Shown piece by piece: positions 1,348 to 37,771 of a DNA stretch of 64,000 nt. The DNA is from an uncultured Dehalococcoidia bacterium (lineage in GTDB: Bacteria; Chloroflexota; Dehalococcoidia; Lucifugimonadales; UBA3495), in the NCBI GenBank assembly GCA_958296385.1, contig OY282494.1:3058981-3122980 (forward strand), in the 5' to 3' direction. Each line of letters begins with the position of its first letter. The stretch's first letter is position 1. The translations under genes were made by a program, and so were the position numbers. The notes beneath the pieces were generated by a model. That model searched no databases. It was not told the DNA's origin and saw only the letters and a list, made by a program, of their open reading frames with translations.

Positions 1348-2577
1348 CTACCGCGACAGCCCGTAGGCGGTGGCCTGCAACCTGGTATCGCCCGTAGCGT
1401 TGAGCCGCTGCGTGATGCGGTCAATCAAAGCCCCAACGGCCGTTTCGCCCCAGAACCAGCGGTGCACGTCCGCCTCGCTGTCCGATGGACGCTGATTCAT
1501 CCGCGCCTCGTAGCAGAACGCCTTAAGGTCGTCGGCGCAGTAGCGCACGAACTGCGGCACCGAAACGTCGGCCGGCCGGTCGTCAAAGTCGGCGTCGTCG
1601 CTGTCCGCGTAGGCTTCCAGAAACCGGATAATCCCTCGAAACCGGCGCTGCGGCACCCCCGTTAGGCCAACGGCCGAACGCCCCCGCTGCTCCACCCACC
1701 GCTCATAATAGCTCCGCAGAGCCGTAATCTCGTCGGCAGCATCCAGCGGCTTTGATGCTCCGTTGCCCGATGCGCCGTTGCCCGCACCCCCGTTAGCGGA
1801 TGCGGCCACTTCCGATGCCTGCGGCATCCCGATTGGCCCGGCATCATCCGGATAATCGGCCAGCACCGGCCCGGCGTCGGCCCGCAGCGTGTCCAGCGCG
1901 GCGGCCAAAACGTCGTGCTGAAAGGCCGGGTCATCCGGCTGGCCCATTGCGTAGCCGAAGTAGAACGGCACCCACAGGGCCCGTGGCGGGCGGGTGCGTT
2001 GGGCGTGTTCCCGCACCAATGCCACCGCAACGGTAGTCAGCCCCGCCGCCTCAAACACCCTGGCCAGCACGCTCACGGCGTGCGTGCAGAGGGGTCAAGT
2101 AGGCGTCAAAAGTACCAGGTTCACCCCTTCCGCTTGCAGCCGCCGGGCCACCTCCGGCCCGGTTTCCTCCGCCACGACGGTACAATCCCGCAGCGCGCCC
2201 ATAAAGGAGTAATGATTGGGCGCCAGCCGCCCCAGCCGCCCCTGCTCCACCAGCTCCCGCATCCGGTCGATGGGGAAAGTAACGTTGAGGTCCTTGTAGA
2301 TGGCGGTACGGTCAAACCCGATGCTGAAGTGGCTTTGCACAATGTCGGCCGGGTCAGCGTCGCTGGGAATGATGCGGTACGTTGACTCGCCGCCCGGATG
2401 GTCGCGGTTGAACGGCTTGTCATCCCGCAAGTGCAGCCCGCCGGTAGTGACGATGGCCGCCGTGCTGGCCGACAAATCCCGGCCCAGCGGCGTCCACGGC
2501 ACGTCGTCGGATTCCATACAGGGAAAGAACTCCAGCATCCGGCGCTGAACTTCGGACAGTATTTCAAGGCGGGGCAT
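1348..2577 (-). CDS. GrdB-like selenoprotein (glycine/sarcosine/betaine reductase selenoprotein B family) with in-frame UGA
   Basis: An ordinary ORF finder gives two pieces, 2577-2095 and 2076-1348, in the same frame, separated only by TGA at 2097-2095. Reading the TGA as selenocysteine gives one protein of 409 residues with Sec161 in a T-U-P-L-C motif (UxxC redox motif). It sits in the hydrophobic-strand context LVLLTPT-U typical of this family, and downstream PPRALW and a GQPDD segment also match the family. Start ATG 2577 has an AGAGGAG Shine-Dalgarno. The C-terminal ~150 residues beyond the core are less familiar. The gene lies 54 nt after a TcuA-like flavoprotein gene on the same strand, suggesting a shared reductive or dehydrogenase pathway; the substrate is unknown. 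The alternative is a nonsense-disrupted gene, but the reading frame is intact on both sides and the stop falls exactly at the family's Sec/Cys site. Confidence 0.85.
2067..2087 (-). promoter_or_regulatory. Candidate bacterial SECIS hairpin for the GrdB-like selenoprotein
   Basis: On the minus strand the stem GCACGC (2087-2082) pairs perfectly with GCGTGC (2072-2067) around a 9-nt loop. It begins 7 nt after the UGA. A further CCCT/AGGG pairing can extend it across an internal loop. Position and form suit a bacterial SECIS element read by SelB, but this is a fold made by eye in GC-rich coding sequence. Confidence 0.45.
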
Positions 2578-23032: not shown

Positions 23033-23305
23033 ATGTTGAATTGCCGACGTTGCGCAGGTGAGCACCTGCTGGAATTGGGGCGGCTGGACGTCCGGGATTA
23101 CCCGGTGTTCCGCTGCCGTCGCTGCGGGTTTCTGTTCAGCCCGCCGGAGCAGGATTTAACCATGGCCCGGGGCGGGCAGGTTGAGTATTCCGCGCCGCCC
23201 CACGACATCGCCGATATTGCCGGCCCGGCCCCGGCGCGCGGTTTGCCGCAACGCGGGCCGGCCCAACGCGTTCCCTCCCGGCGCGGGCCGTCCTCCGCGC
23301 GCTGA
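23033..23305 (+). CDS. Zinc-ribbon protein coupled to the terminase gene
   Basis: The 90-residue protein starts with a four-cysteine zinc ribbon (CRRCAGEH ... CRRCGFLF, about residues 3-30). A disordered Pro/Arg/Gly tail follows. Its TGA stop overlaps the terminase ATG by one base (TGATG), so the two are translationally coupled. This suggests a packaging-related role, for instance a DNA-binding or small terminase-like partner, but it is not a recognisable TerS. Confidence 0.65.
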   Translation: MLNCRRCAGEHLLELGRLDVRDYPVFRCRRCGFLFSPPEQDLTMARGGQVEYSAPPHDIADIAGPAPARGLPQRGPAQRVPSRRGPSSAR

Positions 23306-24741
23306 TGCCGCTGCCGGGGCAGACGGACGGCAAGCAAAGGTATCAGGCATCCAGCACGAAAGCGGACGACGGTTCGCCCGGCCCGGCGGCCCAAGACCCG
23401 GTGACCCAAGACCCGGTCGCTTTTGCCAGCGACGTGCTGGGCGTCCAGCTCTGGTCCAAGCAGTGCGACGTGCTGCGGGCGGTTACCGCCGGCCGCCGGG
23501 TGGCGGTCAAATCCGGCAACGGGCTGGGCAAGGACTTTACCGCCGCCGTTGCCATCCTGTGGTATCTGGGCGCCCACGACCCCGGCATCGTGCTCAGCAC
23601 CGCGCCCACCTTCCGGCAGGTGCGGCACGTGCTTTGGCGTCAGCTGCACCGCCTGCACCGCCGGGCCGCCGGCAGGCTGGGCGGCGAATTGCTGGATACC
23701 CGCTGGGAACTGGCCGACGACCGTTACGCCCTGGGGCTGTCCGCCAGCGGCGCCGACCAGTTCCAGGGCTTTCACTGCGAGAATATGCTCGTCGTAGTGG
23801 ACGAAGCGGAGGGCGTCTCCGAGCCAATCTACGAGGCGGTGGAGGCGCTGATGACGTCGGCCAATCCCAAGCTGCTGCTCATCGGCAACCCCACCGTCAC
23901 TTACGGGGCGTTCCATCGCGCCTTTCACCAGGAAAGCGGCATCTACCGCACCATCACCATATCCGCCCTGGAATCGCCCAACGTGGCCGCCGGCCGGGTC
24001 GTCGTGCCGGGGCTGACTACCGCCGAGTGGGTCGAGGAACGCCGGGCCATCTGGGGCGATGACAGCCCGCTGTTCCGGGCCCGGGTGATGGGCGAGTTTC
24101 CCGATCGCTCCGACGACGGCTTGATTAGCGCAGCCGACATTGAGGCGGCGCTGCTCCCGCCCGGAGCGCGTCCGGCGCTGGAACGGGGTTCAGAGCTATT
24201 CGCTGTGGAGCCGGCGGTTATCGGAGTTGACGTGGCCCGCTATGGCCCGGACCGCAGCGTCATCGTGGTGCGCCGGGGCAGCGTGGTGGTGGACGTGCAG
24301 GTGTATTCCGGCATTGACACGATGGAGCTGGTCGGCTACGTCGTTGTGGCGATGCGGGAGTATGCCCCGGAGCGGGTCAACATCGACGTCGTTGGCCTGG
24401 GCAGCGGGGTAGTCGACCGCCTGAACGAACAGGGCTTGACGGGGGTGCGCGGCGTCAGCGGAGCGGAGTCGCCGGTGCGGGAGGCCGCCTGCGCCAACCT
24501 GCGCGCCGAGGGCTACTGGACGCTGCGCCAGCGGTTCGCCCAGCGGGCCATCCGCATCCCCAACGACCCGGAGCTGATTGCCGAACTGTCGTCCCTGCGC
24601 TACACGTTCAGCAGCCGGGGCAAGGTGCTGATGGAAAGCAAAGAGGACCTGCGGCGGCGCGGCCGGCGCTCCCCCGACAAGGCCGACGCGCTGATGCTGG
24701 CCTTTCTCAACGACACCCCCGCCGTTGAGCTGTTTCTCTGA
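23305..24741 (+). CDS. Phage terminase large subunit
   Basis: The 478-residue protein is an intact packaging motor. The ATPase part has Walker A KSGNGLGKDFTAAVA (about 70), an STAPTFRQVRHVLW coupling segment and Walker B LVVVDEAEG (about 165). The nuclease part has GVDVARYGPDRSVIVVRRG (about 308), the second acidic region NIDVVGLGSGVVDRL and the third SPDKADALMLAF at the C-terminus, the RNase H-like triad. It is coupled to the zinc ribbon gene upstream and followed by the portal gene. Codon use looks host-like. Confidence 0.92.
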   Translation: MPLPGQTDGKQRYQASSTKADDGSPGPAAQDPVTQDPVAFASDVLGVQLWSKQCDVLRAVTAGRRVAVKSGNGLGKDFTAAVAILWYLGAHDPGIVLSTAPTFRQVRHVLWRQLHRLHRRAAGRLGGELLDTRWELADDRYALGLSASGADQFQGFHCENMLVVVDEAEGVSEPIYEAVEALMTSANPKLLLIGNPTVTYGAFHRAFHQESGIYRTITISALESPNVAAGRVVVPGLTTAEWVEERRAIWGDDSPLFRARVMGEFPDRSDDGLISAADIEAALLPPGARPALERGSELFAVEPAVIGVDVARYGPDRSVIVVRRGSVVVDVQVYSGIDTMELVGYVVVAMREYAPERVNIDVVGLGSGVVDRLNEQGLTGVRGVSGAESPVREAACANLRAEGYWTLRQRFAQRAIRIPNDPELIAELSSLRYTFSSRGKVLMESKEDLRRRGRRSPDKADALMLAFLNDTPAVELFL

Positions 24742-24799
24742 ATCAAGAATCCCACGAACCAGCAAATACCAGTCAATTACAGTGAGGTGCCAGAGGATT

Positions 24800-26089
24800 A
24801 TGGATGATAAAGCGACGATGATTACCCGATTGGGCCAGGCGCTGCGAACGGGCGGCATCCGGCGGCATCGGATTGCTCCGGGGCCGCCGCCGCCGGATGA
24901 CCGGACGCCGCCGCCGGCCGCTGTGCCGGGGCGGGTCGAGCGCGCCAGCCGGGCTGCCGCTGCGGAACGCCGCCCGTCCGAGGAACGGCTGCCCGCCGGC
25001 GAGGGCTGGGCCCGGCCCGAATACGGCCGCTACATGGCAACCTCGCCGTCGGTATATGCCGCCGTCAAGCTGCGGGCCGATGCGGTGACGCGCCCGCCCC
25101 TGCTGGTGTACCGCACGTCCGGCGGCCCGCCCGGAACGCCCCGCCGCCGCACGCTGGTAGAGCCCACGCATCCCCTGACGCGCCTGCTGGAGCGGGTCAA
25201 CCCCTGGCACACGCGCGGCGATTTGTGGCGGGCTACGGAAATCTACCTCTGCCTCTGGGGGGCGGCTTTTTGGGCCATTGAACACGGCGCGGACGGCGAA
25301 CCGGAGCTGTGGCCCCTGCGCCCCGACCGGATGGCCGTAATTCCCGACCGGCAGCGCTACGTGCGGGGTTTCGTGTACCGGGGCAGCGCCACGCCGGTTG
25401 CCTACACGCCCGATGAAATCGTGTGGCTGCGCTACTTCAACCCGATGGACGAGCTGGCCGGGTTGTCGCCGCTGGCCCCCGCCCGTCTGTCAGCGGATAT
25501 GGGACACGAGGGCTTGCAGTTCAACCGCAACCTGCTGCGCAACTCGGCGCGCCCCGACTTTCTGCTGCTCACCAACCAGGAGATGAACGAAACCGAGCTG
25601 GAGGAGTTCTACGTCCGGTGGGAATCCCGCTACCAGGGCGCGGCCAACTCCTACCGTCCGGCGGTGGCGTCAGCGGTGCGGGACGTGAAAACGCTGGGGC
25701 TGTCCCACCGGGACTTGGACTTTATCCAGGGGCTGCGCTGGAGTCTGGAGGAAATCAGCCGCACCTACGGCGTCCCCAAGCTGCTGCTGGGCGATTTTGA
25801 GCGGGCTACCTACGCCAACGTGCAGGCCGCCGAGCGGATGTTCTGGCGCAACACCATCGTGCCGGAAGTACGCTTCCTCGAGGAACAGCTGAACAGCGTC
25901 CTGCTGCCCCGCCTGGGCTACTCCGAGCTGACCGTAGAGTTTGACCTGTCGGTAATCGAAGCCCTGCAAGAGGACGAAAACAGCCGGGTGCAGCGAGAAA
26001 CGGCACTTCTCGACCGGGGCGTGCTAACCATCAACGAAGTCCGCCGCGCCCGCAACCTCCCCGAAGTACCCTGGGGAGATGCCCAGTAA
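24800..26089 (+). CDS. HK97-family phage portal protein
   Basis: This 429-residue portal forms the ring through which terminase pumps DNA. SVYAAVKLRADAVTRPPLLVYR, an internal HPLTRLLERVNPWHTR, and the C-terminal LDFIQGLRWSLEEISRTYGVPKLLLGDFERATYANVQAAERMFWRNTIVPEV are strong signatures of the HK97 type. ATG 24800 follows AGAGGA and is preferred over the open frame extending back into the terminase gene. The matching protease, capsid and tail genes are not downstream; they lie 13 kb to the left on the other strand. Confidence 0.92.
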   Translation: MDDKATMITRLGQALRTGGIRRHRIAPGPPPPDDRTPPPAAVPGRVERASRAAAAERRPSEERLPAGEGWARPEYGRYMATSPSVYAAVKLRADAVTRPPLLVYRTSGGPPGTPRRRTLVEPTHPLTRLLERVNPWHTRGDLWRATEIYLCLWGAAFWAIEHGADGEPELWPLRPDRMAVIPDRQRYVRGFVYRGSATPVAYTPDEIVWLRYFNPMDELAGLSPLAPARLSADMGHEGLQFNRNLLRNSARPDFLLLTNQEMNETELEEFYVRWESRYQGAANSYRPAVASAVRDVKTLGLSHRDLDFIQGLRWSLEEISRTYGVPKLLLGDFERATYANVQAAERMFWRNTIVPEVRFLEEQLNSVLLPRLGYSELTVEFDLSVIEALQEDENSRVQRETALLDRGVLTINEVRRARNLPEVPWGDAQ

Positions 26090-26131: not shown

Positions 26132-26668
26132 CTAGCCCCCGGTAATAATAGCGACGACTTCGGCGGCCAGCCCTTCGGCCCGTTCCCGCAGGGCGGGGCG
26201 GTCCAGGTTCTCTATGGGATGCTGGGTGTAGATGGTGGGGTAGCCTTCCGCGCCCCACATCTTGGCCATTGCCGTTGCGGTGGGGATGAAACGGTCGGTG
26301 CAAATCGTGGCGGAGGGCAGGCCGGCCTTCTCAACGTGGATTCCGTCGTGCACACTGCACGCGCTGCAACTCCCTCAATCGCCGATGGCCACCACCACCG
26401 AGTCCACGCTGCCCACCAGTTCTTGCAGCTCTGCGGGGTCAGCCGGACGGGATGCGCTGGGCTTGCGCAGCCACCGCACTTCGCGGATTTCGTAGCGGTT
26501 GCGCAGCACTTCGGCCAGTTCCTCCAGCAGCACGTCGGCGTTGCGCTTGCTGTCGTCAATCAGCCCCAGGCGCGTGCCGGCCAGCGAGGGCAGCCGGGGC
26601 GCGCCGTCAAAAGGCGCAATAATCGGTTCGGTCGTCGGGTTCACCAGGACATATTCCTGCGTAGCCAT
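26132..26668 (-). CDS. UGSC-family selenoprotein with in-frame UGA
   Basis: ORF finders split this gene at TGA 26377-26375 into 26683-26375 and 26353-26132, which share a frame. Read through, the protein has 178 residues with Sec98 in the motif G-D-U-G-S-C-S-A-C, exactly the U/C-GSC signature that names the UGSC family. It is followed by the family's VHDGIHVEKAGLPSATIC stretch. ATG 26668 has GGAGGG 7 nt upstream and is preferred to the TTG at 26683. The function of the family is unknown; a thiol/selenol redox role is inferred from the motif. It converges on the portal gene. A pseudogene is unlikely because both flanks are conserved. Confidence 0.9.
26347..26361 (-). promoter_or_regulatory. 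Candidate bacterial SECIS hairpin for the UGSC gene
   Basis: CGTGCA (26361-26356) and TGCACG (26352-26347) form a perfect 6-bp stem with a GTG loop starting 20 nt after the UGA, with G as first loop base, as in bacterial SECIS elements. Confidence 0.55.
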
Positions 26669-26695
26669 CTGCATCCCTCCCAAGTTACGTTCGCT

Positions 26696-26729
26696 GCCGC
26701 TGTTATACCAGTGCCGCTGTTATACCAGT
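26696..26729 (-). promoter_or_regulatory. Two tandem 17-bp repeats carrying -10-like boxes upstream of the UGSC gene
   Basis: ACTGGTATAACAGCGGC (minus strand) occurs twice head to tail at 26729-26713 and 26712-26696. Each copy contains TATAAC, a plausible -10, so the repeat may supply two staggered promoters. The rest of 26684-26931 holds no gene I can support. Confidence 0.5.
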
Positions 26730-26931
26730 TCGCAGGCGTGCTTGCCAAGTTGCCGGGCACAATTTGAGGTGGTTTCGCTGCCGGGGGCTCCCCGTATAGG
26801 CACCTTAAAGAGAATATCTTGGAATCCTGCAACCGTCCATAGGCGGGCGTCAAGGTCGCAGGTAATTGAGGATGCGTTCGTCGCAGATAGCGCGGATTCG
26901 TCACTCGGTTACGTTATTGAGATGTTATCAC

Positions 26932-28062
26932 TTACCTTGCTGTCAAGAGAAGGTCAATTTCGCAGTTGGCTCGCTTTGGAGCGCCACCACGGCTGTAGGC
27001 TTTGGTCTGGGATTGTGGCGGCATCGGGCGTGGTATCTCTGTGATGCGCTTTTCCGGGAAGTTAACTTCCAACGCGGCCTTAGTATTCCGGTAAGTGGAT
27101 TCCCGCTGGTCCGTGCGAACGTAGATTATTGCGTCATCCGCTAGAACGGGCTTGCACTTGGCGAACGCCTGCTCAAGTAGTTGCCGGTATTGGTACTGAT
27201 TGCTAAATTTTCCTCCGTAGCAATTGCTGGCGTAGGTGTCAGGGTACTCTGGCCCGCCAAGCAACCACAGCCGGAGCCACTGGTCGTAGTAGTAGTTGGT
27301 GACATTATGGTAAGGCGGTGATGTGATGAGCAGTTTGGCTTTGTCCCGTTTGCCCTCTCTGACTTCACGCGCCAACCGGGGCAAATATTGCAGACTGTCG
27401 TTAAGATAAACCACGGCATTGCTGGTTTGGGGTGCGCCGTGAACATAGCGCCAGGATATGCGCTTAGCCAGGAATGTAACCGGATCAATTTCGGGCGGCG
27501 TCAATCCTTTTTCCTGCCACCAACGGACGCTGTAATTTGGTGCCATCGCCGTGCTTTGCCGCATTTGGTTGGATAAAGCGCTGCCTTGCTTACCGTGCAA
27601 GGATATGAGGATGAGTGCCATTAGGACACGGTCGGTGTTTGACCGGCGCCAGTTCAGATGGGTGCGGGCGGCCAGGAGAAACTCACGCACTGGGGGCGAG
27701 TAGCAATAATGAAAGAACTCTGGCAACGTCTCTGCGATAGCTCGGTATTGCCCTGCGGCTTCGGCCAGCAATCCCAGCCTGTCGATTACTGCCTTGTACC
27801 CGACAGGTTTGAGTTTCGCATTAGAATAGACATAGCCCAGCGGGTTGATGTCAATGCCGACAGCGGGGCGGCCGGCAGTCGCGGCGCTGAATATAGCCGC
27901 CCCCCGGCCGGCGAAGGGGTCAATGACAGTGTCGCCCGGCCGGGTGTACTCGTCAACCGCCCGGTCGGTGAACGCAGTGGGGAACATTCCATAGTACGGG
28001 CCGATGCCGGCCCAGCGGGCCGCGGCGGTGCCGTACTTCGGGGCTAACTTGGGTTCATTCAT
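26932..28062 (-). CDS. DNA methyltransferase (N4-cytosine/N6-adenine type) of a HerA-NurA operon
   Basis: The 376-residue protein has the SAM-binding motif DPFAGRGAA (about 46-55, followed by VGIDINPLGYVYS) and the catalytic TSPPY motif at about 250, as in amino-methyltransferases acting on exocyclic N4 or N6. Motif I precedes the catalytic motif by 200 residues. The ATG (28062) overlaps the end of the nurA-like gene by 8 nt, so it is the third gene of a three-gene operon. It probably protects host DNA while HerA-NurA attacks unmodified DNA. Base composition is visibly AT-richer than the neighbours. Confidence 0.85.
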   Translation of the reverse strand: MNEPKLAPKYGTAAARWAGIGPYYGMFPTAFTDRAVDEYTRPGDTVIDPFAGRGAAIFSAATAGRPAVGIDINPLGYVYSNAKLKPVGYKAVIDRLGLLAEAAGQYRAIAETLPEFFHYCYSPPVREFLLAARTHLNWRRSNTDRVLMALILISLHGKQGSALSNQMRQSTAMAPNYSVRWWQEKGLTPPEIDPVTFLAKRISWRYVHGAPQTSNAVVYLNDSLQYLPRLAREVREGKRDKAKLLITSPPYHNVTNYYYDQWLRLWLLGGPEYPDTYASNCYGGKFSNQYQYRQLLEQAFAKCKPVLADDAIIYVRTDQRESTYRNTKAALEVNFPEKRITEIPRPMPPQSQTKAYSRGGAPKRANCEIDLLLTAR

Positions 28063-29479
28063 GTTTCATCAGGCCTTCGGCCAAGTTTTGCAGCACGCTG
28101 ACACTAGGACGAATCGGTATAGCTGCGGCGTGGTGAGCCAACCGTATGGGCATCAGGGAGTTGGGGCTTTGGGATGAGGTTATCCCATCCAGCAGCGCGC
28201 AGGTTCTCCCCAAGGACGGGTACAAGGTCAGGTCATTACTGGTCAGGTCGCTTTGCTGCTGATTCAGAAACGCGGTGGTTATGACCAAGCGATACCCGTT
28301 GGCTGCCTTGTACAGTAACTTGCGTCCGAAGTGAGTTGCATTTCCATAAGGTCGGTTTGTTTCGTTGGGGGCGATGCGGCCGGTAATGTAGTCGTTGGTT
28401 GGCATGAACAGCTGGCGTGGCTGGAACCGCTGTACTCCTGGTTCACTGGTCTTGTCGATCAGTTCGAAGTGGTCAACGAAGCGGCCGGTTTTCTCAACCG
28501 CTACGATAATCATATCGTAGCCGGTGCGTTCTTGCACTTTCGTGTTGATGCGTTGGATTTCCGTTTCGAGGGCTTTCGCCATCCACGATGGGCCGCCGAA
28601 TACGGCCAATTGACCGTCGCTGATAAATGCGATACGGTGTGCTTGGGACAGGAAATTGTCATTATTCTCAATCAGGTGCAGGTAGCGAAGCAACTCCAGT
28701 CGTTCCAGCACTTGGGCTACCGCACCTAATTGATTGCCGTTGGGGCCGTCTTCCATAAAGCGTTCGTGGATGCGAGTAGCATCAGTCGACCAGATGGGCA
28801 GCTGATTTGGGCATGGGCATTTTGACTGCCCGGTCGGTATTGGAATTTTACGTTCGCGTTCGTTGGCAATGGCCAGTTTGCAAGATTCCTGTTCGGGCGC
28901 ATCCGGGTCTGGTCTGGAGTAGGGGCATTTGGTAGCGCCTCTGCGGTGTCCAGCGAGTAAGCGCTCGTATGCAGAAAGCAGGCTTTCCTCCGCTACTGCT
29001 CCATTACTCTGGGCGCTATCCAGCGCTGTTGCCAGCATTTGGTACAGTTCATTGCGGAACGAAGTTCTAGCGTTGGGATTGTTGCCTGTGATTAGGTTGG
29101 CACCCGGAAGAGCCGCCGGTGTAGTTGATTCGTCGCGCGTACGACGGTATTGATCCGGGTCCATGGGCCGGCTTTGACTTACCCGACTTAGTTCCGCAGT
29201 TCTCAGTAGCACGGTGCTAAGGGTGATGTAGCCAACCTGTGCGCTCGGATATACATCCTTTTGCAGCGCGCCGGCTGCAGTTTCGTGCCAACTGCTGTCA
29301 AAGGCGATAATGAGGTCGGGTAGAACTCCGTCTTTTTTCGGGGCCGCTTGCGGCTCTATCGGGTAGTCCGGGTCTTCCTGCTGCCACTGTTTGGCGCGAG
29401 CCAACAGGCCGCGCACCTGCTGGCTATTGACAATCCGTTCCAGCGGGCGGTAGCCGGCGCGTTCTCCTTCGTAAGGCAT
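28055..29479 (-). CDS. nurA: NurA-domain nuclease
   Basis: This 474-residue protein contains a NurA-like nuclease fold. The DLIIAFDSSWHE segment near residue 50 resembles the first metal-binding Asp motif, and downstream lie ISDGQLAVFGGPSWMAKALETEIQRI and the C-terminal SLMPIRLAHHAAAIPIRPSVSVLQNLA typical of NurA C-termini. A CPYSRP...C...CPCPN cysteine cluster (about 185-230) may bind zinc. In archaea NurA is a 5'-3' exonuclease that works with HerA; the herA-like gene lies 5 nt upstream. Confidence 0.75.
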   Translation of the reverse strand: MPYEGERAGYRPLERIVNSQQVRGLLARAKQWQQEDPDYPIEPQAAPKKDGVLPDLIIAFDSSWHETAAGALQKDVYPSAQVGYITLSTVLLRTAELSRVSQSRPMDPDQYRRTRDESTTPAALPGANLITGNNPNARTSFRNELYQMLATALDSAQSNGAVAEESLLSAYERLLAGHRRGATKCPYSRPDPDAPEQESCKLAIANERERKIPIPTGQSKCPCPNQLPIWSTDATRIHERFMEDGPNGNQLGAVAQVLERLELLRYLHLIENNDNFLSQAHRIAFISDGQLAVFGGPSWMAKALETEIQRINTKVQERTGYDMIIVAVEKTGRFVDHFELIDKTSEPGVQRFQPRQLFMPTNDYITGRIAPNETNRPYGNATHFGRKLLYKAANGYRLVITTAFLNQQQSDLTSNDLTLYPSLGRTCALLDGITSSQSPNSLMPIRLAHHAAAIPIRPSVSVLQNLAEGLMKHE

Positions 29480-29484
29480 TTTGA

Positions 29485-31608
29485 TTAGCTCCCCGCAGCA
29501 AGAGTCATTTGCCCTTTGGCAACCGTCGGAGGCAGTGAGTTCTTGATGTAGAACTGATTGACTTGTGCCGGCACTACGTATTGGTTAGACAACGTTTTGA
29601 TGCGTAGGAACCCCTTGTCCGCGGCACGCCGGATGCTGGCTTCGAAGTCAGCAAAGTCGTAGTACTTCCGCAGTTCGCGGGTCTCATCTGTGTTGTTCAG
29701 ATGCCCGATGAACCAGTTGGTGGTGTTCTTGAGGATGTTCGGTTGGATAGAACTGACTTCTTGCGTAGAGTACACCAGCCCAATGTTGTACTTGGCGCCT
29801 TCTTTGGCCGTCCTGATCCAAGTGTCGGACAGGTCCAACTCGTTGGACGCGGGCAGTATGTCGTGGGCCTCTTCGACGTACACTAGGATGTCGTGCGGTT
29901 CCTTACCGTTGCGGAACAACTTCTGGTTCTCCTTAAAAATGTATTCCATTGTGCGATATGCAGAGTTTTTGTTCAACGGCAGGTCGCCGCTGGACTGGTC
30001 CACTATTACCATCCGGCCGGCTTTCAGGTGTTCGTAGATGTCGACAGCGAAGTCATCGTCGGTGTCATTGGTATGATTCGGGAGGGCGGCTCCAATAAGG
30101 CGAGGGCCGTTCGGGTATTGCCACATGGCAAGTATTTTCTTCAAGTCCTCGTCGGCCCACTCGCCTGAGCTGCTATTTTTGATGTACGCGTCGTTGAATT
30201 CGGTGTACGCCTTGTTTGGGTTGTTGTTAATGAACTCTCCCAGTACCTCACAGAACCTGGCTGCTTCGTTCCATTCAAGGCTGTCTTTCTCAATTGATTT
30301 TGCTGGGTTAGCGTAATGTTCACCCGCTTTGCGCATGGCATCGCGTAGCTCTTTGTTAAACAAGCTCTTAGCGTTTGGTCGGAAATTGTGCGGCACGCTG
30401 AAACCCGCCTGGGAAAGCAAGGCTCGGTAGGCGAATACACGTCGTTTGTAACGCGTCGCTTCGCTGCCTATGTCTTCGGATGGCTTGCTGAATCGGACAT
30501 CGCGGAAGTTGGCAATGTAGTTCGAACCTCGAGAGCCGCTTTGCGCCAGAGCTTCGTCGATAATTTTTTTGCCAACCTGAAGGTTGCGGTCTTCGTAGAA
30601 ATTGACCAGCATCAGCTTGCGTTCCGGGTCGTAATCTGGCCGGTTTATTCCGTAGGTGACGATGTCGGAGCGCAATTCACCATGCCGGTCTGATGGCGCA
30701 TCCATCCATGCGTTCTTCAGCGCGCTGGGATATTTGGGGTCGTTAGCGTCTTGTGTGTTGACATTGGCATACTCTCCGTCTGGGTCAAAGATAATCTGCC
30801 CGATTTTGCGTTCATTGCCGATTTCCCAGCGCATGGCGAAGACCGAGGAAGCGATGATCTTCACAGTATTAGACTTGCCGGTTCGAGTCATCCCAAACAG
30901 GGCCGTTTTCTGTCCGGATAGGTCTTCGGGCGTTATGCGAACTGGCACATCGTCGACACTCTGGAACTGGCGGTGGGTTGACGCATAGCGTACAAAGCCG
31001 ATTTCCGTCTCATGCTGGGTAGGCTCACTGCGGTAGTTGACGATTTTGGATAAAGCTTTGCCTTTGGGTTTATAGACTTTCAAACCACGGTTCGGGTAGT
31101 AGTTGGAAATGTCGGAACCGAATGACAAAATGCTCTGCGGGGCTTGCCCCGGCCGGTTCTCACGCGTGACATAGAAAGTGCCAATTACCCGGCACTTGAT
31201 ACCAGCGAAGGAGAGCAGGTGGCTGGTTTCCGGGTCCATTACTCCGTCCTCTTCCCAATTACGGTTCGGATCGCCGGACACTTGCCGGCTGAGTTCCACG
31301 CGTATGCCGGTAGCTACGTCTTCGGAAGGCAAGTCCACCCTGTCCATCACCCGAAGCAAGATGACGGAAGCGTCCTCACTCTCAACATCGAAGTCTTCGT
31401 CGGGGCTGATGCGGGTTGCGACAAGGAAGGACAGGGCCGGGATACCGCCGACTTTGCGGCGGTGGTGGTCGTGGACTTGCAATAGCGCAGTCTCGTAGCT
31501 CAAAGAGAAGACCTCGCCAACATAGGACTGTGGGTCGAACAGATCGCTGAGCAGTTTCTGCTCTGGTTCGTTCAGAGAGCGGCTCAGTTCCCGAACTATC
31601 GATGTCAT
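29485..31608 (-). CDS. herA: HerA-like hexameric ATPase (DUF87)
   Basis: The 707-residue protein has an N-terminal HAS-barrel-like region, then Walker A GMTRTGKSN at about 240 and Walker B ILVYVEEAHD at about 570, a layout typical of HerA/FtsK-type DNA translocases. GAGGAGG precedes ATG 31608 and a TATACT -10 lies upstream. It leads the operon herA-nurA-methyltransferase. By analogy it forms a ring that feeds DNA to the nuclease. The region looks horizontally acquired: lower GC and inserted between genes of other functions. Confidence 0.88.
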   Translation of the reverse strand: MTSIVRELSRSLNEPEQKLLSDLFDPQSYVGEVFSLSYETALLQVHDHHRRKVGGIPALSFLVATRISPDEDFDVESEDASVILLRVMDRVDLPSEDVATGIRVELSRQVSGDPNRNWEEDGVMDPETSHLLSFAGIKCRVIGTFYVTRENRPGQAPQSILSFGSDISNYYPNRGLKVYKPKGKALSKIVNYRSEPTQHETEIGFVRYASTHRQFQSVDDVPVRITPEDLSGQKTALFGMTRTGKSNTVKIIASSVFAMRWEIGNERKIGQIIFDPDGEYANVNTQDANDPKYPSALKNAWMDAPSDRHGELRSDIVTYGINRPDYDPERKLMLVNFYEDRNLQVGKKIIDEALAQSGSRGSNYIANFRDVRFSKPSEDIGSEATRYKRRVFAYRALLSQAGFSVPHNFRPNAKSLFNKELRDAMRKAGEHYANPAKSIEKDSLEWNEAARFCEVLGEFINNNPNKAYTEFNDAYIKNSSSGEWADEDLKKILAMWQYPNGPRLIGAALPNHTNDTDDDFAVDIYEHLKAGRMVIVDQSSGDLPLNKNSAYRTMEYIFKENQKLFRNGKEPHDILVYVEEAHDILPASNELDLSDTWIRTAKEGAKYNIGLVYSTQEVSSIQPNILKNTTNWFIGHLNNTDETRELRKYYDFADFEASIRRAADKGFLRIKTLSNQYVVPAQVNQFYIKNSLPPTVAKGQMTLAAGS

Positions 31609-31639
31609 CTGAATAGGCCTCCTCTACCGTATCTGGGTT

Positions 31640-31665
31640 AGTATATCAGATGTATGGTATATCGG
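31640..31665 (-). promoter_or_regulatory. Promoter with repeated GATATAC words upstream of herA-like gene
   Basis: On the minus strand GATATAC occurs twice, 9 bp apart. The second copy contains TATACT (31645-31640), a likely -10 sited 31 nt before the ATG. The duplicated word around the -10 could be an operator. Confidence 0.45.
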
Positions 31666-31698
31666 GATTGCGGAGCTTCTGAACTTTTCGCCAGGTAA

Positions 31699-31803
31699 GT
31701 GCAAAAGGAGCGCTTGGGTGGTCAGCTGATTGCTTTACGAAATCCGTAGCAAATTACTTGATTGCGATGGCTCAACCGTTAACGTAATTCGTCCCTTTTG
31801 CAC
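31699..31803. repeat. Inverted repeat in the gap beside the HerA operon
   Basis: GTGCAAAAGG (31699-31708) and CCTTTTGCAC (31794-31803) are exact complements bounding 105 bp, with an inner AATTAC/GTAATT pair. It lies in the 288-bp non-coding gap between the HerA operon and the next gene. It may be a hairpin, a phage-like attachment remnant or a MITE-like scrap. Confidence 0.55.
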
Positions 31804-31896
31804 CTCAACCCAGTGTTGAACGGTGACCATTTAAGTAGCCGAATCACCTCATTCTTTGACTGGCTCAAGATGGCGCTAGAACTGCCGCCGCGATTT

Positions 31897-32961
31897 TTAC
31901 GGCAGTCGCACCCGCTTGGTTACGGCGGTGGAGCCGACTTTTGGCCCCCAGCTTGGTATCACCGACGACATATTGGATTCCTCGCCGCCGGCGAATACCA
32001 CCAGGATGTCGTCGGGTTCCGGTATCAGCGAAACCATCGCTGCCTCATCGCCGGGTTCCACGTCGCCGCGCAGCACCAGCCCCCGTTTCAAGTCGGCGAC
32101 GGAACGCTGGATGTTGGCGTGCAGATAGGCCCGGATGTCGGCTTTGGTATAGTCGGCCCAAAGGCGGCTGTTGCCGGCGAATGTTGCGACGATTTGACCC
32201 TGCCGGATGCCCACCGAAACGTCGCCCACCGAGCCGGAGGTGGACATTGACGTGCCCAGCGATGAGGCAGCGTCGGCCAGGGCGAACAGGATGGCCTCCG
32301 GCCGGCCCACCGCGCGGGTCTGCCGGGGGCTTTCGCCGGCGAACACCGTAACCGTGCTGTCCGACGCGTCAAAGCCCCGCTCCACGTGCAGCGGCGTCCA
32401 GTGCGTTTCCCCCTCCGCCTCGGCGATGCAGTAAGTGTACTTGCCGGGGTGTCCGATAACGCTGCGGTCAAACAGGCCGGGAATGGCGGCGCAGGCATTC
32501 ATCAGGATTAGACGCACCGCCCGCCCGATGGTGCCGTTGGCCCGGTTGCCCGGCCCAAACAGATTGTTGCGCGAGTTCAGCCCAATCTGGGATACCACCG
32601 GCCCGTTGACGATACAAAGCACCGCCGCGCCGCCCATGCTGGACGACGGCCCAACCAGATTGAACACCGGGTCCAGCATCGCCTCGGCCGCGGCCAGCAC
32701 GACGGGAAAATACTCCGGCCGGCAGCCGGCCATAACCGCATTGGCCGCCGCCTTCTCCACCGTAATAACCCGCCGGCGCTCCGGCAGCTCGCCGATAACG
32801 TCATCGGGCGCCCGCCCGGCATAGCCAATAAACTCCGCCACCCGCTCTGCCGCCGGCGGAACAACGGGCAACCCGTCGCTCCACCCCAGCTCATAGCAAC
32901 GCTCCACGGCATCAAAAATACCGTCCCAGGAAGTGGTAGTAACATCGGTGAAAGTGGTCAA
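31897..32961 (-). CDS. Conserved protein of unknown function, possible UGSC-associated enzyme
   Basis: This intact 354-residue protein begins with WDGIFDAVERCYELGWSDGLPVVPPA. It contains a conserved-looking VMAGCRPEYFPVVLAA (about 80-95) and GNRANGTIGRAVRLILMN (about 143-160). I recognise it as a conserved bacterial protein without a named function. I recall such proteins near UGSC-type genes, but am not certain. Here it is on the same strand as the UGSC gene, with the HerA operon between them. No signal peptide or membrane segment. It starts 11 nt after the HEPN-like pair. Confidence 0.6.
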   Translation of the reverse strand: MTTFTDVTTTSWDGIFDAVERCYELGWSDGLPVVPPAAERVAEFIGYAGRAPDDVIGELPERRRVITVEKAAANAVMAGCRPEYFPVVLAAAEAMLDPVFNLVGPSSSMGGAAVLCIVNGPVVSQIGLNSRNNLFGPGNRANGTIGRAVRLILMNACAAIPGLFDRSVIGHPGKYTYCIAEAEGETHWTPLHVERGFDASDSTVTVFAGESPRQTRAVGRPEAILFALADAASSLGTSMSTSGSVGDVSVGIRQGQIVATFAGNSRLWADYTKADIRAYLHANIQRSVADLKRGLVLRGDVEPGDEAAMVSLIPEPDDILVVFAGGEESNMSSVIPSWGPKVGSTAVTKRVRLP

Positions 32962-33810: not shown

Positions 33811-34758
33811 TTACACCCGTGCGTACTTGGAGAAGCTGCGCAGCTCTTGCGGCGGGTCCATGTGGCTGCCGCGGATGGTGTAGGACACTTCGGCTACGTA
33901 CACGGCGCCGGTGCTGTCCACGGCGATGCCGTGCGGCGCGATGAACTGGCCGGGGCCTTCGCCTTCGTCGGCGGAGCCGAACACGCAGACCCGCGCGCCG
34001 TCCCGGTCGTACACGGTAACCCGGTGGCCCAGGCCCGGCGCATCGTCCACGCCGCCCATTCCGTTGAGCTCGCCCACGTAGATATGGCCGTTCCAATAGA
34101 CCATCGCATCCGGTCGGTGGATGTTGTTCCACATCGTCAGGTAGTTGCCCTCGGTGTCAAACAGCTGGATGCGGTGGCACTCCCGGTCCACCACGTACAC
34201 CCGCTCATCCTCGTCAAAAGCGATGTTGTGCGGCCGGATGAACTGGCCGGCGTCAATGCCCGGCTCGCCCCACGAGAACTTGTAGCCGCCCTCGGCGGTG
34301 TACACGTGGATGCGCGAGTTGCCGTAGCCGTCGGATACGTAGATGTCGCCGTTGCTGGGCCGGATGGCCGCCGAAGTGGGGCGATTGAACGGCTGCCCGC
34401 TCCAGCGCGGCGCCGGATGGTTCTTCTCCCCAATCTCCATCAGCTTTTCGCCGGTGACGCTGAACTTCTGGATGGTATGGATGCCGTCGTCGGCCACCAG
34501 CAGCGAGTCATCAGCCGCGCTGTAATACAGGCCGTGCGTGCGGTTGTCGCTGAAATGGCCCTCGCCAAAGGAACGCAGGAAATTGCCGTCCTTGTCAAAC
34601 ACCATAATGGGGTGCACGCCGCGCGTCAGGATGAAAACCCGGTCCGCGCCGTCAACGGCAACGCCGGGACATTCCAGCAGTTTCATCCCGTCGGGCAGTT
34701 TCAGCCAGTTGTCAACGAAAGTGTATTGAAAATCGCCTTGTCCGTAAGTGTCAGGCAT
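33811..34758 (-). CDS. NHL-repeat beta-propeller protein (peptidyl-alpha-hydroxyglycine amidating lyase-like)
   Basis: The 315-residue protein is built of about six NHL-type blades (for example GVAVDGADRVFILTRG, FIRPHNIAFDEDERVYVVD, FIAPHGIAVDSTGAVYVAE). This pattern is seen in bacterial proteins annotated as peptidyl-alpha-hydroxyglycine alpha-amidating lyase-like. No export signal is evident. GGAGGG precedes ATG 34758. It may bind a ligand or act as a lyase/hydrolase in the adjacent catabolic gene cluster. Confidence 0.8.
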   Translation of the reverse strand: MPDTYGQGDFQYTFVDNWLKLPDGMKLLECPGVAVDGADRVFILTRGVHPIMVFDKDGNFLRSFGEGHFSDNRTHGLYYSAADDSLLVADDGIHTIQKFSVTGEKLMEIGEKNHPAPRWSGQPFNRPTSAAIRPSNGDIYVSDGYGNSRIHVYTAEGGYKFSWGEPGIDAGQFIRPHNIAFDEDERVYVVDRECHRIQLFDTEGNYLTMWNNIHRPDAMVYWNGHIYVGELNGMGGVDDAPGLGHRVTVYDRDGARVCVFGSADEGEGPGQFIAPHGIAVDSTGAVYVAEVSYTIRGSHMDPPQELRSFSKYARV

Positions 34759-34824
34759 AGTTCCCTCCTTGTGAGTGTGATTGATAAGTGTCGGTTGTCC
34801 GTTGGGATATATTGTCAGGATAGG

Positions 34825-35601
34825 TTACTGTGCGATGCAGCCGCCGTCGATAACCAGTTCGGCGCCGGTTACGAAAGACGCCTCGTCGGAGGCCAGATAA
34901 AGCACGCCGTAGGCAACCTCGATGGGGTGCGCCCGGCGGCCCAGCGGAACCAGCGCCAGCCGCTGCGCCGCCACCTCCGGGTCTGCGTAGGTTGATTCGC
35001 TCATCGGCGTCATAATCGGCCCCGGATGCACCGAGTTGGCCCGGATGCCCTCGGCGGCGTGCTGGATGGCGGTGGCCTTGGTGAACAGCCGCACCGCCCC
35101 TTTGGACGCATTATAAGGATGCGAGCGAGACCACGCCCCGGTCATTCCGGCGATGGACGATATGTTGACGATGGAACCGCCGCCGGCCCGGCGCAGCGCC
35201 GGAATCGCCGCTTTGGTGCCGAGAAACACGCCTTTGGAGTTGATGTCCATTACCCGATCCCAGTCGTCAACGCTGGTATCCTCCATCGCGATGTTGCCGG
35301 CGCCCCCGCCGGCCGAGATGCTGATGCCGGCGTTATTCACCAGCGCATCCAGCAGGCCGTAGCGTTCCTCCGCCAGCGCAACGATGCTCTGCCAGTCCGC
35401 CTCGCTGGTAACGTCCAGATGGGCATAGGCTACATCATGGCCCAAGGCCCGCTGTTCGGTTTCCACCTGCTGGCCCAAGTCGTCCAGAATATCGCCGAAA
35501 ACCACCCGTGCGCCCTCTCGGGCAAACAGGCCCACCTCCTCGGCGCCCATCCCCCGCGCGCCGCCGCTGATTAGAACAACCTTGCCGTCAACTCGCCCCA
35601 T
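34825..35601 (-). CDS. SDR-family NAD(P)-dependent oxidoreductase
   Basis: The 258-residue classical SDR has the cofactor motif GGARGMGAE (about 12-20), NNAGIS (about 88), the catalytic Ser in ISSIAGMTG and YxxxK as YNASKGA (about 155). The ending VTGAELVIDGG is typical. The Asp of FGDILDD after the second strand favours NAD(H). The leader contains three copies of a Shine-Dalgarno-bearing repeat. Confidence 0.9.
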   Translation of the reverse strand: MGRVDGKVVLISGGARGMGAEEVGLFAREGARVVFGDILDDLGQQVETEQRALGHDVAYAHLDVTSEADWQSIVALAEERYGLLDALVNNAGISISAGGGAGNIAMEDTSVDDWDRVMDINSKGVFLGTKAAIPALRRAGGGSIVNISSIAGMTGAWSRSHPYNASKGAVRLFTKATAIQHAAEGIRANSVHPGPIMTPMSESTYADPEVAAQRLALVPLGRRAHPIEVAYGVLYLASDEASFVTGAELVIDGGCIAQ

Positions 35602-35653
35602 GATACGTGCCTCCTGTCCGGGATACGTGTCTCCTGTGATACGTGCCTCCTGT
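35602..35653 (-). repeat. Triplicated 16-bp repeat containing Shine-Dalgarno sequence
   Basis: ACAGGAGGCACGTATC (minus strand) occurs at 35617-35602 and 35653-35638, with the variant ACAGGAGACACGTATC at 35637-35622. The copy next to the SDR ATG supplies its ribosome binding site; the other two place GGAG-type sites further upstream. Confidence 0.85.
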
Positions 35654-35673
35654 CAGATCAGGCCGGCGCTGTT

Positions 35674-36054
35674 CTAGCCGGCGCTGTTGTCGTCCATAAA
35701 CATACCGACAACGTTGCCCTCGGTGTCGCGGAAATTGGCGAAATAGCCCACGCCCGGAATGACGGTGCGCGGCGTCACAATCTCCGCGCCGGCGGCCGTC
35801 ACCTTGCCGATGTAGGCGTCCAAATCGTCCACCGCAATGACTACCAGGGTGCCGCCCCGGTTGAGGGCGGCGGCCCGTTCAATCAACGCCCCGGATATGC
35901 CGTAGGTTTCGTCGTCCGGGCCGGTTTGTTGCAGGTAGTAGTCCTCCGGCCCGCCCTCAAACTTGCTGGCCTGCCAGCCGAACACGTCGGCGTAAAACTT
36001 GTTGGCCCGTTCGGAATCGTCAAACGGCATCTCAAAATGCACTACTTTCGGCAT
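35674..36054 (-). CDS. VOC-family protein (glyoxalase/bleomycin resistance fold)
   Basis: The 126-residue protein has the VOC pattern of paired beta-alpha-beta modules: VVHFEMPFDDSERANKFYADVFGWQ at the N-terminus and ANFRDTEGNVVGMFMDD at the C-terminus. The His in VVHFEM and Glu in TEGN are likely metal ligands. It is encoded among oxidoreductases; substrate unknown. Confidence 0.88.
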   Translation of the reverse strand: MPKVVHFEMPFDDSERANKFYADVFGWQASKFEGGPEDYYLQQTGPDDETYGISGALIERAAALNRGGTLVVIAVDDLDAYIGKVTAAGAEIVTPRTVIPGVGYFANFRDTEGNVVGMFMDDNSAG

Positions 36055-36103
36055 GATTACTCCGCTGTTTGCTGTGCTGGTGAATATGATTCCCGGTATC
36101 CTT

Positions 36104-36137
36104 TAACGGCATCCGTCTTATAACGGCATCCGTCTTA
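36104..36137. repeat. Tandem 17-bp direct repeat
   Basis: TAACGGCATCCGTCTTA occurs at 36104-36120 and 36121-36137, followed by a degenerate third copy (TTAACGGCTTCAGTC). It lies between the VOC gene start and the GMC gene stop. Confidence 0.8.
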
Positions 36138-36166
36138 ACGGCTTCAGTCAAAGGAGTGGGGAACCT

Positions 36167-37771
36167 TTACGCGATGGCCGCTGCGCCTTCGCCTTTGAGA
36201 TAGTCGGCGGTGCGCAGGGCCAGCGCCTGGATGGTGGTAGTTGGGTTGATGCAGGCGCCGGTGGTAAAGATGCTGCCGTCAATGATGAACAGGTTTGGCA
36301 CGTCGTGGGCCCGCCCCCAGCGGTCAACTACCGACGTATCGGGGTCTGCGCCCATTCGCGCGGTGCCCAGCAGATGCCAGCCGGCGTTGCGCCGCAGCCG
36401 GGATGACATTACCCGCACGGCCCCGGCCGTTTCCAGCGCCTCGGCAGCGCGGGCCACGCCGTGGTCCAGCATGGTCCAGGTATTGTCGCTGACGGTGTAG
36501 TCTATCTTGGGCGCGGGGATGCCGTGCGCGTCGGTCAGCGTCGGGTCCAGGGTGACCCGGTTGTGCGCCTCCGGCAAGTCCTCGGTCATTATGACGATGC
36601 CCATTTGATGCCGGAACCGCCTGGCAAAGTCCCGGTGGTGCGACTCGCCCCAGGGCACCGCCTGGCCAACCAGCCCGCCCAGGGCAACTTGCAGCGGCGC
36701 GCCGCCGACGTTGGACGCTTGCGACACCTGCAAGTCGTAGCCCCGCACGAACCCCCGGCGCAGGTCGGTTTCGTAAAACTCCTGGCTCAGCATCGACGAG
36801 CCGCGCGGCCCGTGGTCCGATCCCAAATCCTCGTCAAACACCCCCAGCACGTAGCCGCAGGGATGGTGCATCAGGTTGCGCCCCACTTGCCCGCTGCTGT
36901 TGGCCAGCCCGTCGGGGAACAGTGCGCTTTGCGAGTTCAGCAGCAGCCGGGAAGTGCCTACGCCGTTGCACGCCAGCACCACGACTTTGGCGTACTGCGC
37001 CTGCAATTCGCCGTGGTGGTCGTAGTAGGCGGCGCCGGTGGCCCGGCCGCTGTCGTCAACCAGAATCTCCCGAACCCGCGCGTGGGTAATCAGCCGCGCG
37101 CCCTGCTTGAGGGCCTTGGGCCAGAATATGATGTCGCTGGACGACGGCGAACGCAGGTACTCGCCCACGTCGGCGGCGCGCCCGTCCCAGGCGGTGGAGT
37201 GCACCGCGTTGTCCGCTGACCACCAGTGCCACCCCAGCTTGTTGAACGCCGCGCCCAGCAGCTCGCCGCCCCGTCCGATGGGCAGCGGCGGCGTCGGGCG
37301 CGCCGGCTTGGGCGGATACGCCGGGTCGCCCTGCAAACCGCTCACGCCGTGCATCCGGTCGTTCAGGTCGTAGTAGGGTTCCAGCTCAAAGTAATCCATC
37401 GGCCAGTCGTCGGCCACGCCGTCCAGCGAGTTCACCCGGAAATCGGACGGATGGAACCGGGGAAAATGCGAACCCCAATGGACGGTGCTGCCGCCGACGG
37501 CGTTGTACATATACGGCGCAATGGGCGTGTTCGCCTCGTTAACCGGATAATCCTCCGGCAGCCCCCGAAAGTTGGGGTTGGGATGAAAGTCCGTCTGCCA
37601 GTGCAACTGCGCCTGCGGTTCGCTAACCGGAAACGCCGTCGGCGCCACCCAGCCGCCCTGCTCCAGGCACACCACCTTAACGCCGGCCTCAGTAAGGCTC
37701 CAGGTAAAAGCCGCCCCGGACGCCCCGGCGCCGATAACGAGAACGTCGGCAATATCGTGCTTGCTGCTCAT
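36167..37771 (-). CDS. GMC-family FAD oxidoreductase
   Basis: The 534-residue flavoprotein has the FAD motif GAGASGAAF (about 14-22), a GMC signature region YNAVGGSTVHWGSHFPRF (about 88-105) and the C-terminal LLGTARMGADP with NPTTTIQALALRTADYL. The active-site His/Asn pair would lie in HLLGT and NPT. GMC enzymes oxidise alcohols or sugars. The context of SDR, VOC and PPOX genes suggests a catabolic cluster. Confidence 0.9.
   Translation of the reverse strand: MSSKHDIADVLVIGAGASGAAFTWSLTEAGVKVVCLEQGGWVAPTAFPVSEPQAQLHWQTDFHPNPNFRGLPEDYPVNEANTPIAPYMYNAVGGSTVHWGSHFPRFHPSDFRVNSLDGVADDWPMDYFELEPYYDLNDRMHGVSGLQGDPAYPPKPARPTPPLPIGRGGELLGAAFNKLGWHWWSADNAVHSTAWDGRAADVGEYLRSPSSSDIIFWPKALKQGARLITHARVREILVDDSGRATGAAYYDHHGELQAQYAKVVVLACNGVGTSRLLLNSQSALFPDGLANSSGQVGRNLMHHPCGYVLGVFDEDLGSDHGPRGSSMLSQEFYETDLRRGFVRGYDLQVSQASNVGGAPLQVALGGLVGQAVPWGESHHRDFARRFRHQMGIVIMTEDLPEAHNRVTLDPTLTDAHGIPAPKIDYTVSDNTWTMLDHGVARAAEALETAGAVRVMSSRLRRNAGWHLLGTARMGADPDTSVVDRWGRAHDVPNLFIIDGSIFTTGACINPTTTIQALALRTADYLKGEGAAAIA

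Follow-up and report, generated by a model that had tools for sequence, protein, structure and literature searches.

A UGSC-Family Gene With an In-Frame TGA and Its Conserved Neighbor u1: a Candidate Two-Part Selenoenzyme in a Dehalococcoidia Genome

Introduction

When a conserved reading frame is interrupted by a single TGA, is the codon a stop, an error or a selenocysteine (Sec), and what might the protein do if the frame is read through? This question is raised by a gene of the UGSC family at positions 26132-26668 of a 64,000-nucleotide (nt) stretch of contig OY282494.1, from an uncultured Dehalococcoidia bacterium; this whole stretch is referred to as the window throughout. A preliminary description had placed a "hidden" selenoprotein at these coordinates, which proved right, and had not given the strand, which is the minus strand. 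We consider it very probable that the gene is read with UGA as Sec, a judgment that covers the Sec-decoded gene and not the reaction of its product. The word "hidden" is apt as far as ordinary open reading frame (ORF) calling is concerned, but not for the family or its use of Sec, both of which were already known. The gene is a further member of a family described in 2008 and not a new kind of selenoprotein.

Reading the TGA as Selenocysteine

With the TGA translated as U, the product reads MATQEYVLV...VVVAIGD-U-GSCSACSVHDGIHVEKAGLPSA...IITGG*. Searching with this read-through product had been proposed as a check on the UGSC identity, and the identity holds: Pfam UGSC (PF24696) gives 183.6 bits against a cut-off of 25 (E 4.4e-54) and NCBIfam UGSC_fam (NF041046) gives 147.9 bits against a cut-off of 125 (E 2.1e-43). 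Both curated cut-offs are exceeded and the whole protein thus belongs to the family. The strong Shine-Dalgarno sequence noticed earlier is also in place (Table 1). The source genome, a single contig of 3.30 Mb, encodes six UGSC genes, each with a TGA; the U, G and C of the motif and a downstream D are invariant across these six paralogues, among which a long conserved block is absent.

The TGA is also conserved beyond this genome. Our orthologue set comprised 53 sequences, the window gene and 52 others from metagenome-assembled genomes (MAGs) of SAR202/Dehalococcoidia, and codon variation was followed in a set of 47. All 53 orthologues carry TGA at the UGSC site, which is therefore not a sequencing error; TGC, one of the alternatives named in the preliminary description, is found at the site in none of them. 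In a genus sample of 14 genomes there were 113 UGSC matches (6-10 per genome), and exactly one TGA was present in 111 of these. The two exceptions, a split-gene fragment and a copy missing seven codons, both come from one MAG, G004. For the window gene compared with its nearest orthologues, the ratio of nonsynonymous to synonymous substitution rates (dN/dS) is 0.04-0.15 in the part upstream of the TGA and 0.04-0.10 in the part downstream. Purifying selection is thus similar in both halves, which indicates in-frame translation of the second. The Asp codon directly before the TGA is GAT in 47/47 orthologues; the other Asp codons of the gene are GAC in 83% of cases. The publicly named relatives are SAR202/Dehalococcoidia MAGs whose genes are at most 92% identical to the window UGSC gene, and the kind of MAGs among them suggests that this marine organism is probably sponge-associated.

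Decay would be no surprise in a gene with a foreign cassette on one side and terminase and portal genes on the other, but the notion that the TGA is an ordinary stop, a sequencing error for TGC/TGT or the sign of a pseudogene has next to nothing left in its favor and is already refuted for the UGSC family, given the TGA in every orthologue (independent assemblies) and in nearly all genus copies, a dN/dS of about 0.08 downstream of the TGA and the invariant hairpin codons described below.

Bacterial selenoproteins require tRNA-Sec, SelA, SelB and SelD, and this set is complete in the genome. The tRNA-Sec scores 66.4 bits, above the Rfam cut-off, and is called by ARAGORN as tRNA-SeC with anticodon TCA, while SelB and SelA reach profile scores of 357 and 537 bits, respectively. 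The SelD gene (L020, G000:C1:1766127-1767047) contains one in-frame TGA, and SelD is probably itself a selenoprotein. UGA decoding in this organism had earlier been deduced from the presence of two TGA genes, with a search for tRNA-Sec and SelB as the check; the finding of both, together with SelA and SelD, supports that deduction. Reassignment of UGA to Trp, or general read-through independent of the Sec machinery, would produce an open frame that looks identical to the one obtained with U. This explanation is nonetheless extremely improbable considering the complete machinery, the description of the family with Sec or Cys, not Trp, at this site and the conserved bacterial selenocysteine insertion sequence (bSECIS) after the TGA.

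The Hairpin Downstream of the TGA

The perfect 6-bp hairpin with a G-first loop reported in the preliminary description was confirmed at nt 14-28 after the TGA, with the stem at nt 14-19/23-28 and the triloop at nt 20-22. The published geometry of bSECIS elements specifies a loop of 3-9 nt, a stem of 4-16 bp, a G at the first or second loop position and a loop lying 16-37 nt after the UGA (PMC13188914), and the window hairpin falls within all of these bounds. In general, bSECIS elements evolve in concert with SelB. An unbiased scan of the window for TGA triplets that are flanked on either side by coding bias and followed by a hairpin placed the UGSC site among the top three, along with a second site at 2097(-) in a PrdB-like gene.

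The significance of this hairpin derives from the complete lack of synonymous variation in its codons and from compensatory changes in paralogues. Across the 47 orthologues, synonymous variation is zero at codons 103-108, which form the hairpin, whereas it averages 0.44 in the rest of the gene. Among 107 codons for conserved residues, seven are without synonymous variation, namely 103-108 and the Asp codon before the TGA, and the run of invariant codons was matched in 0/200,000 permutations. Over 22 distinct sequences including paralogues, the stem pairs in 97% of cells and its covariation score is 0.294, whereas slid stems do not exceed 0.103 and shuffles average 0.088. Two stem pairs have changed on both sides, and at one of these the encoded residues shift jointly, Cys→Arg going with His→Arg and Cys→Gly with His→Leu; according to the pair count, the L141 group has a G-U pair as its stem change. 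With the residue changes of its two arms coordinated in this way, the stem is a clear natural case of RNA structure constraining protein sequence. Overall, the family match, the Sec machinery, the conservation of the TGA, the conservation and covariation of the hairpin and purifying selection make Sec decoding of the UGSC gene as secure as sequence permits.

A Partner Protein in Gene Order and Fusion

UGSC genes are accompanied by a second gene, here called u1. A u1 homologue lies near all six UGSC genes of the source genome: five adjoin it, one of them as a fusion in a 572-codon frame, and the window pair is split by a cassette. In 50/52 related loci u1 was detected ahead of UGSC in the same orientation, often with a spacing of only tens of bases, and upstream of u1 there are usually genes for an NHL-repeat protein, an SDR and a GMC oxidoreductase. 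Within a phylum sample of 61 genomes, u1 and UGSC occur in the same two, in 6+6 copies in one and 1+1 in the other. The latter genome (G032) has a UGSC-u1 fusion with its own TGA. The natural fusions with an internal TGA (L034 9612-11330 and L167) come from two different Chloroflexota families. The pairing is thus supported by gene order, fusion and one-to-one copy counts, which are good evidence for u1 as a putative obligate partner of UGSC. What was an orphan selenoprotein family thereby gains a concrete hypothesis, that of an obligate pair with u1.

It was reported in 2008 that UGSC can be fused to a domain termed "Unknown_1" (PMC2398784). This may be u1, an identity by description, as the sequences could not be compared. 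Profile searches with u1 returned no Pfam family and no NCBIfam model, a profile comparison of UGSC with u1 revealed no similarity, and nothing credible was obtained for u1 in a PDB sequence search. A cyanuric-acid-hydrolase (Toblerone) fold was considered for u1 on account of weak, consistent top matches (E about 2e-3, template modeling score about 0.2) and was rejected, VIA-align being unsupportive (best Z 6.8, other folds).

Structure and Possible Function

Five beta-alpha units make up the AlphaFold model of UGSC (predicted local distance difference test score 86.6), and the Sec follows directly on the third strand (90-94). Among the matches listed, the closest solved folds are flavodoxin-like/Rossmann, lumazine synthase and receiver domains, and the prediction favors a Rossmann/flavodoxin-like alpha/beta sandwich over a thioredoxin fold. 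In the mechanism that we propose, SelB carrying Sec-tRNA-Sec would be recruited by the hairpin, allowing ribosomes to pass the UGA at codon 98 and yielding a protein of 178 aa whose active site has the motif U-x-x-C. The Sec/Cys pair would sit at the helix start after the third strand of the sandwich, form a reversible selenenylsulfide and act through redox or nucleophilic chemistry; the substrate would be an organic compound that u1 either delivers or binds jointly with UGSC.

UGSC and u1 are most likely a two-part selenoenzyme of organic-compound catabolism, although we infer the reaction only; as to its redox chemistry and substrate, we see an even chance that the proposal is right. Paralogue expansions are known among SAR202 catabolic enzymes (PMC6946804), and by analogy the six paralogous UGSC-u1 pairs suggest substrate diversification of the type reported for other enzyme families of SAR202. 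More broadly, UGSC and u1 could constitute a class of selenoenzyme not described before, with two subunits that are fused in some cases. In one SAR202 genus this class would have expanded to 6-10 UGSC copies with Sec in each genome, every pair having its own organic substrate, a proposal that could go either way. If true, selenium use would be part of the breakdown of dissolved organic matter by the SAR202 clade.

Two other views of the protein need to be weighed. The stronger of these takes UGSC for a remote, free-standing relative of that part of GrdB/PrdB which bears the Sec, and the pair for an enzyme resembling glycine/proline reductase. The TIGR01917 (GrdB) model does match weakly over the Sec site (E 3e-4), and a profile alignment with the PrdB-like protein of the window places Sec on Sec. 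However, that match amounts to 19.8 bits against a cut-off of 602.2, and the alignment with the PrdB-like protein lacks significance (E 0.068, probability 0.8%), leaving this relationship unlikely, if still a serious competitor. A profile comparison with the truncated PrdB-like protein found no similarity. We are more doubtful of the view, following a suggestion made in 2008, that UGSC is a plain thioredoxin-type thiol/selenol redox protein with no special link to u1. While U-x-x-C is similar to redox motifs, the model consists of five successive beta-alpha units of Rossmann/flavodoxin-like arrangement, no thioredoxin is among the fold matches listed (absence from such a list is no proof), and neighborhood, fusion and co-occurrence tie UGSC to u1.

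Several observations weigh against our interpretation of the gene as a Sec-decoded part of a UGSC-u1 enzyme. The hairpin is of ordinary stability (54 nt fold, -11.8 kcal/mol, z = +0.43) and an equally good bSECIS-like stem is present at 11% of the TGA triplets in the window, so hairpin strength alone is no evidence. In the L034 fusion paralogue the loop is shifted and its first base is not G. The G004 copy without seven codons (L111 4592-5083, G004:C45) has lost GVGDUGS in frame while keeping the hairpin and the remaining frame, meaning either that the Sec motif has been lost at least once or that the assembly is at fault. In the source genome, u1-UGSC adjacency is broken by the cassette. Sec insertion itself at codon 98 is something that we infer. 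With regard to the proposed chemistry, a PDB sequence search with UGSC gave no match and the u1 structure model gave no confident fold.

Genomic Surroundings

The features of the locus are collected in Table 1. Homology to related loci ends at the u1 stop codon and restarts roughly 13 bases ahead of the start codon of UGSC, and the UGSC gene itself stays intact and conserved. Between these two points lies the cassette. With its HerA-like ATPase, 474-aa protein and DNA methylase, this is possibly a phage-defence cassette; PADLOC found no full system match for it. Close to the cassette edge that faces UGSC there is a perfect 17-nt tandem repeat (26695-26728). The related loci that were compared lack counterparts of the terminase and portal genes, and no further recognizable phage genes were seen beside these among the tested ORFs; the block may be a phage remnant or a satellite.

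Table 1. Coordinates of the UGSC gene, its signals and other features of the window
Feature	Position	Strand	Remarks
UGSC-family selenoprotein gene	26132..26668	-	178 codons + TAG stop; Sec = codon 98; from ORF reading, family profiles and orthologues
In-frame TGA = U of UGSC	26375..26377	-	codon 98; sole TGA in frame
Shine-Dalgarno GGGAGGG	26675..26681	-	6 nt 5' of ATG; from sequence
bSECIS hairpin CGUGCA-GUG-UGCACG	26347..26361	-	loop 26353-26355; from sequence, conservation, covariation and published geometry
Partner gene u1	31897..32961	-	354 aa; directly upstream of UGSC in relatives
Conserved upstream cluster genes	33811..37771	-	NHL-repeat protein 33811-34758; SDR 34825-35601; GMC oxidoreductase 36167-37771
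Cassette between u1 and UGSC	26682..31896	-	about 5.2 kb; absent from orthologous loci
DNA methylase	26932-28062	-	cassette
Unassigned 474-aa protein	28055-29479	-	cassette; NurA-like by position only
HerA-like ATPase (helicase)	29485-31608	-	cassette
Phage terminase large subunit and HK97-type portal genes	23305-26089	+	other side of UGSC, opposite strand
PrdB/GrdB-like selenoprotein gene	1348-2577	-	TGA 2095-2097 in ...LLTPT-U-PLC; downstream hairpin

The other TGA gene claimed for the window, which is PrdB/GrdB-like, is also real. It matches TIGR04483 with an E of 1e-43, below the cut-off of that model, and its TGA is the same in nine genus loci, the window one included. The match of Pfam PF07355 to this protein ends just before the Sec, and this model therefore seems to have been built on truncated sequences. 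Gene callers that stop at TGA would truncate at least six UGSC genes, SelD and the PrdB-like gene in the source genome. As far as sequence allows, it is settled that UGA is decoded as Sec in this SAR202 lineage. No paper naming both SAR202 and selenoproteins was found in the literature searched, most subscription papers being outside the reach of that search.

Comparison With Known Systems

The hairpin resembles the bSECIS consensus in its 3-nt G-first loop, its 6-bp stem and the position of the loop 19 nt after the UGA. It differs in that no Rfam family reported it at threshold, and in that the fusion paralogue departs from the consensus loop. The GrdB/PrdB subunits of glycine, betaine and D-proline reductases share with UGSC a Sec in a U-x-x-C motif and a weak profile similarity at the Sec site, but UGSC falls far under their cut-offs and u1 matches none of the NCBIfam models.

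The closest comparison is with the UGSC family itself (PF24696/NF041046), which was represented by 255 Sec and 21 Cys forms in the Global Ocean Sampling selenoproteome of 2008 (PMC2398784). The window gene shares with it the full-length profile match, the UGSC motif, the in-frame TGA and a bSECIS-like hairpin, and in itself shows no difference. Three things are added to knowledge of the family: its multiplicity (six genes with Sec in the source genome, 6-10 in each genome sampled from the genus), a partner family that accompanies it one to one and the prediction of an alpha/beta sandwich in place of a thioredoxin fold.
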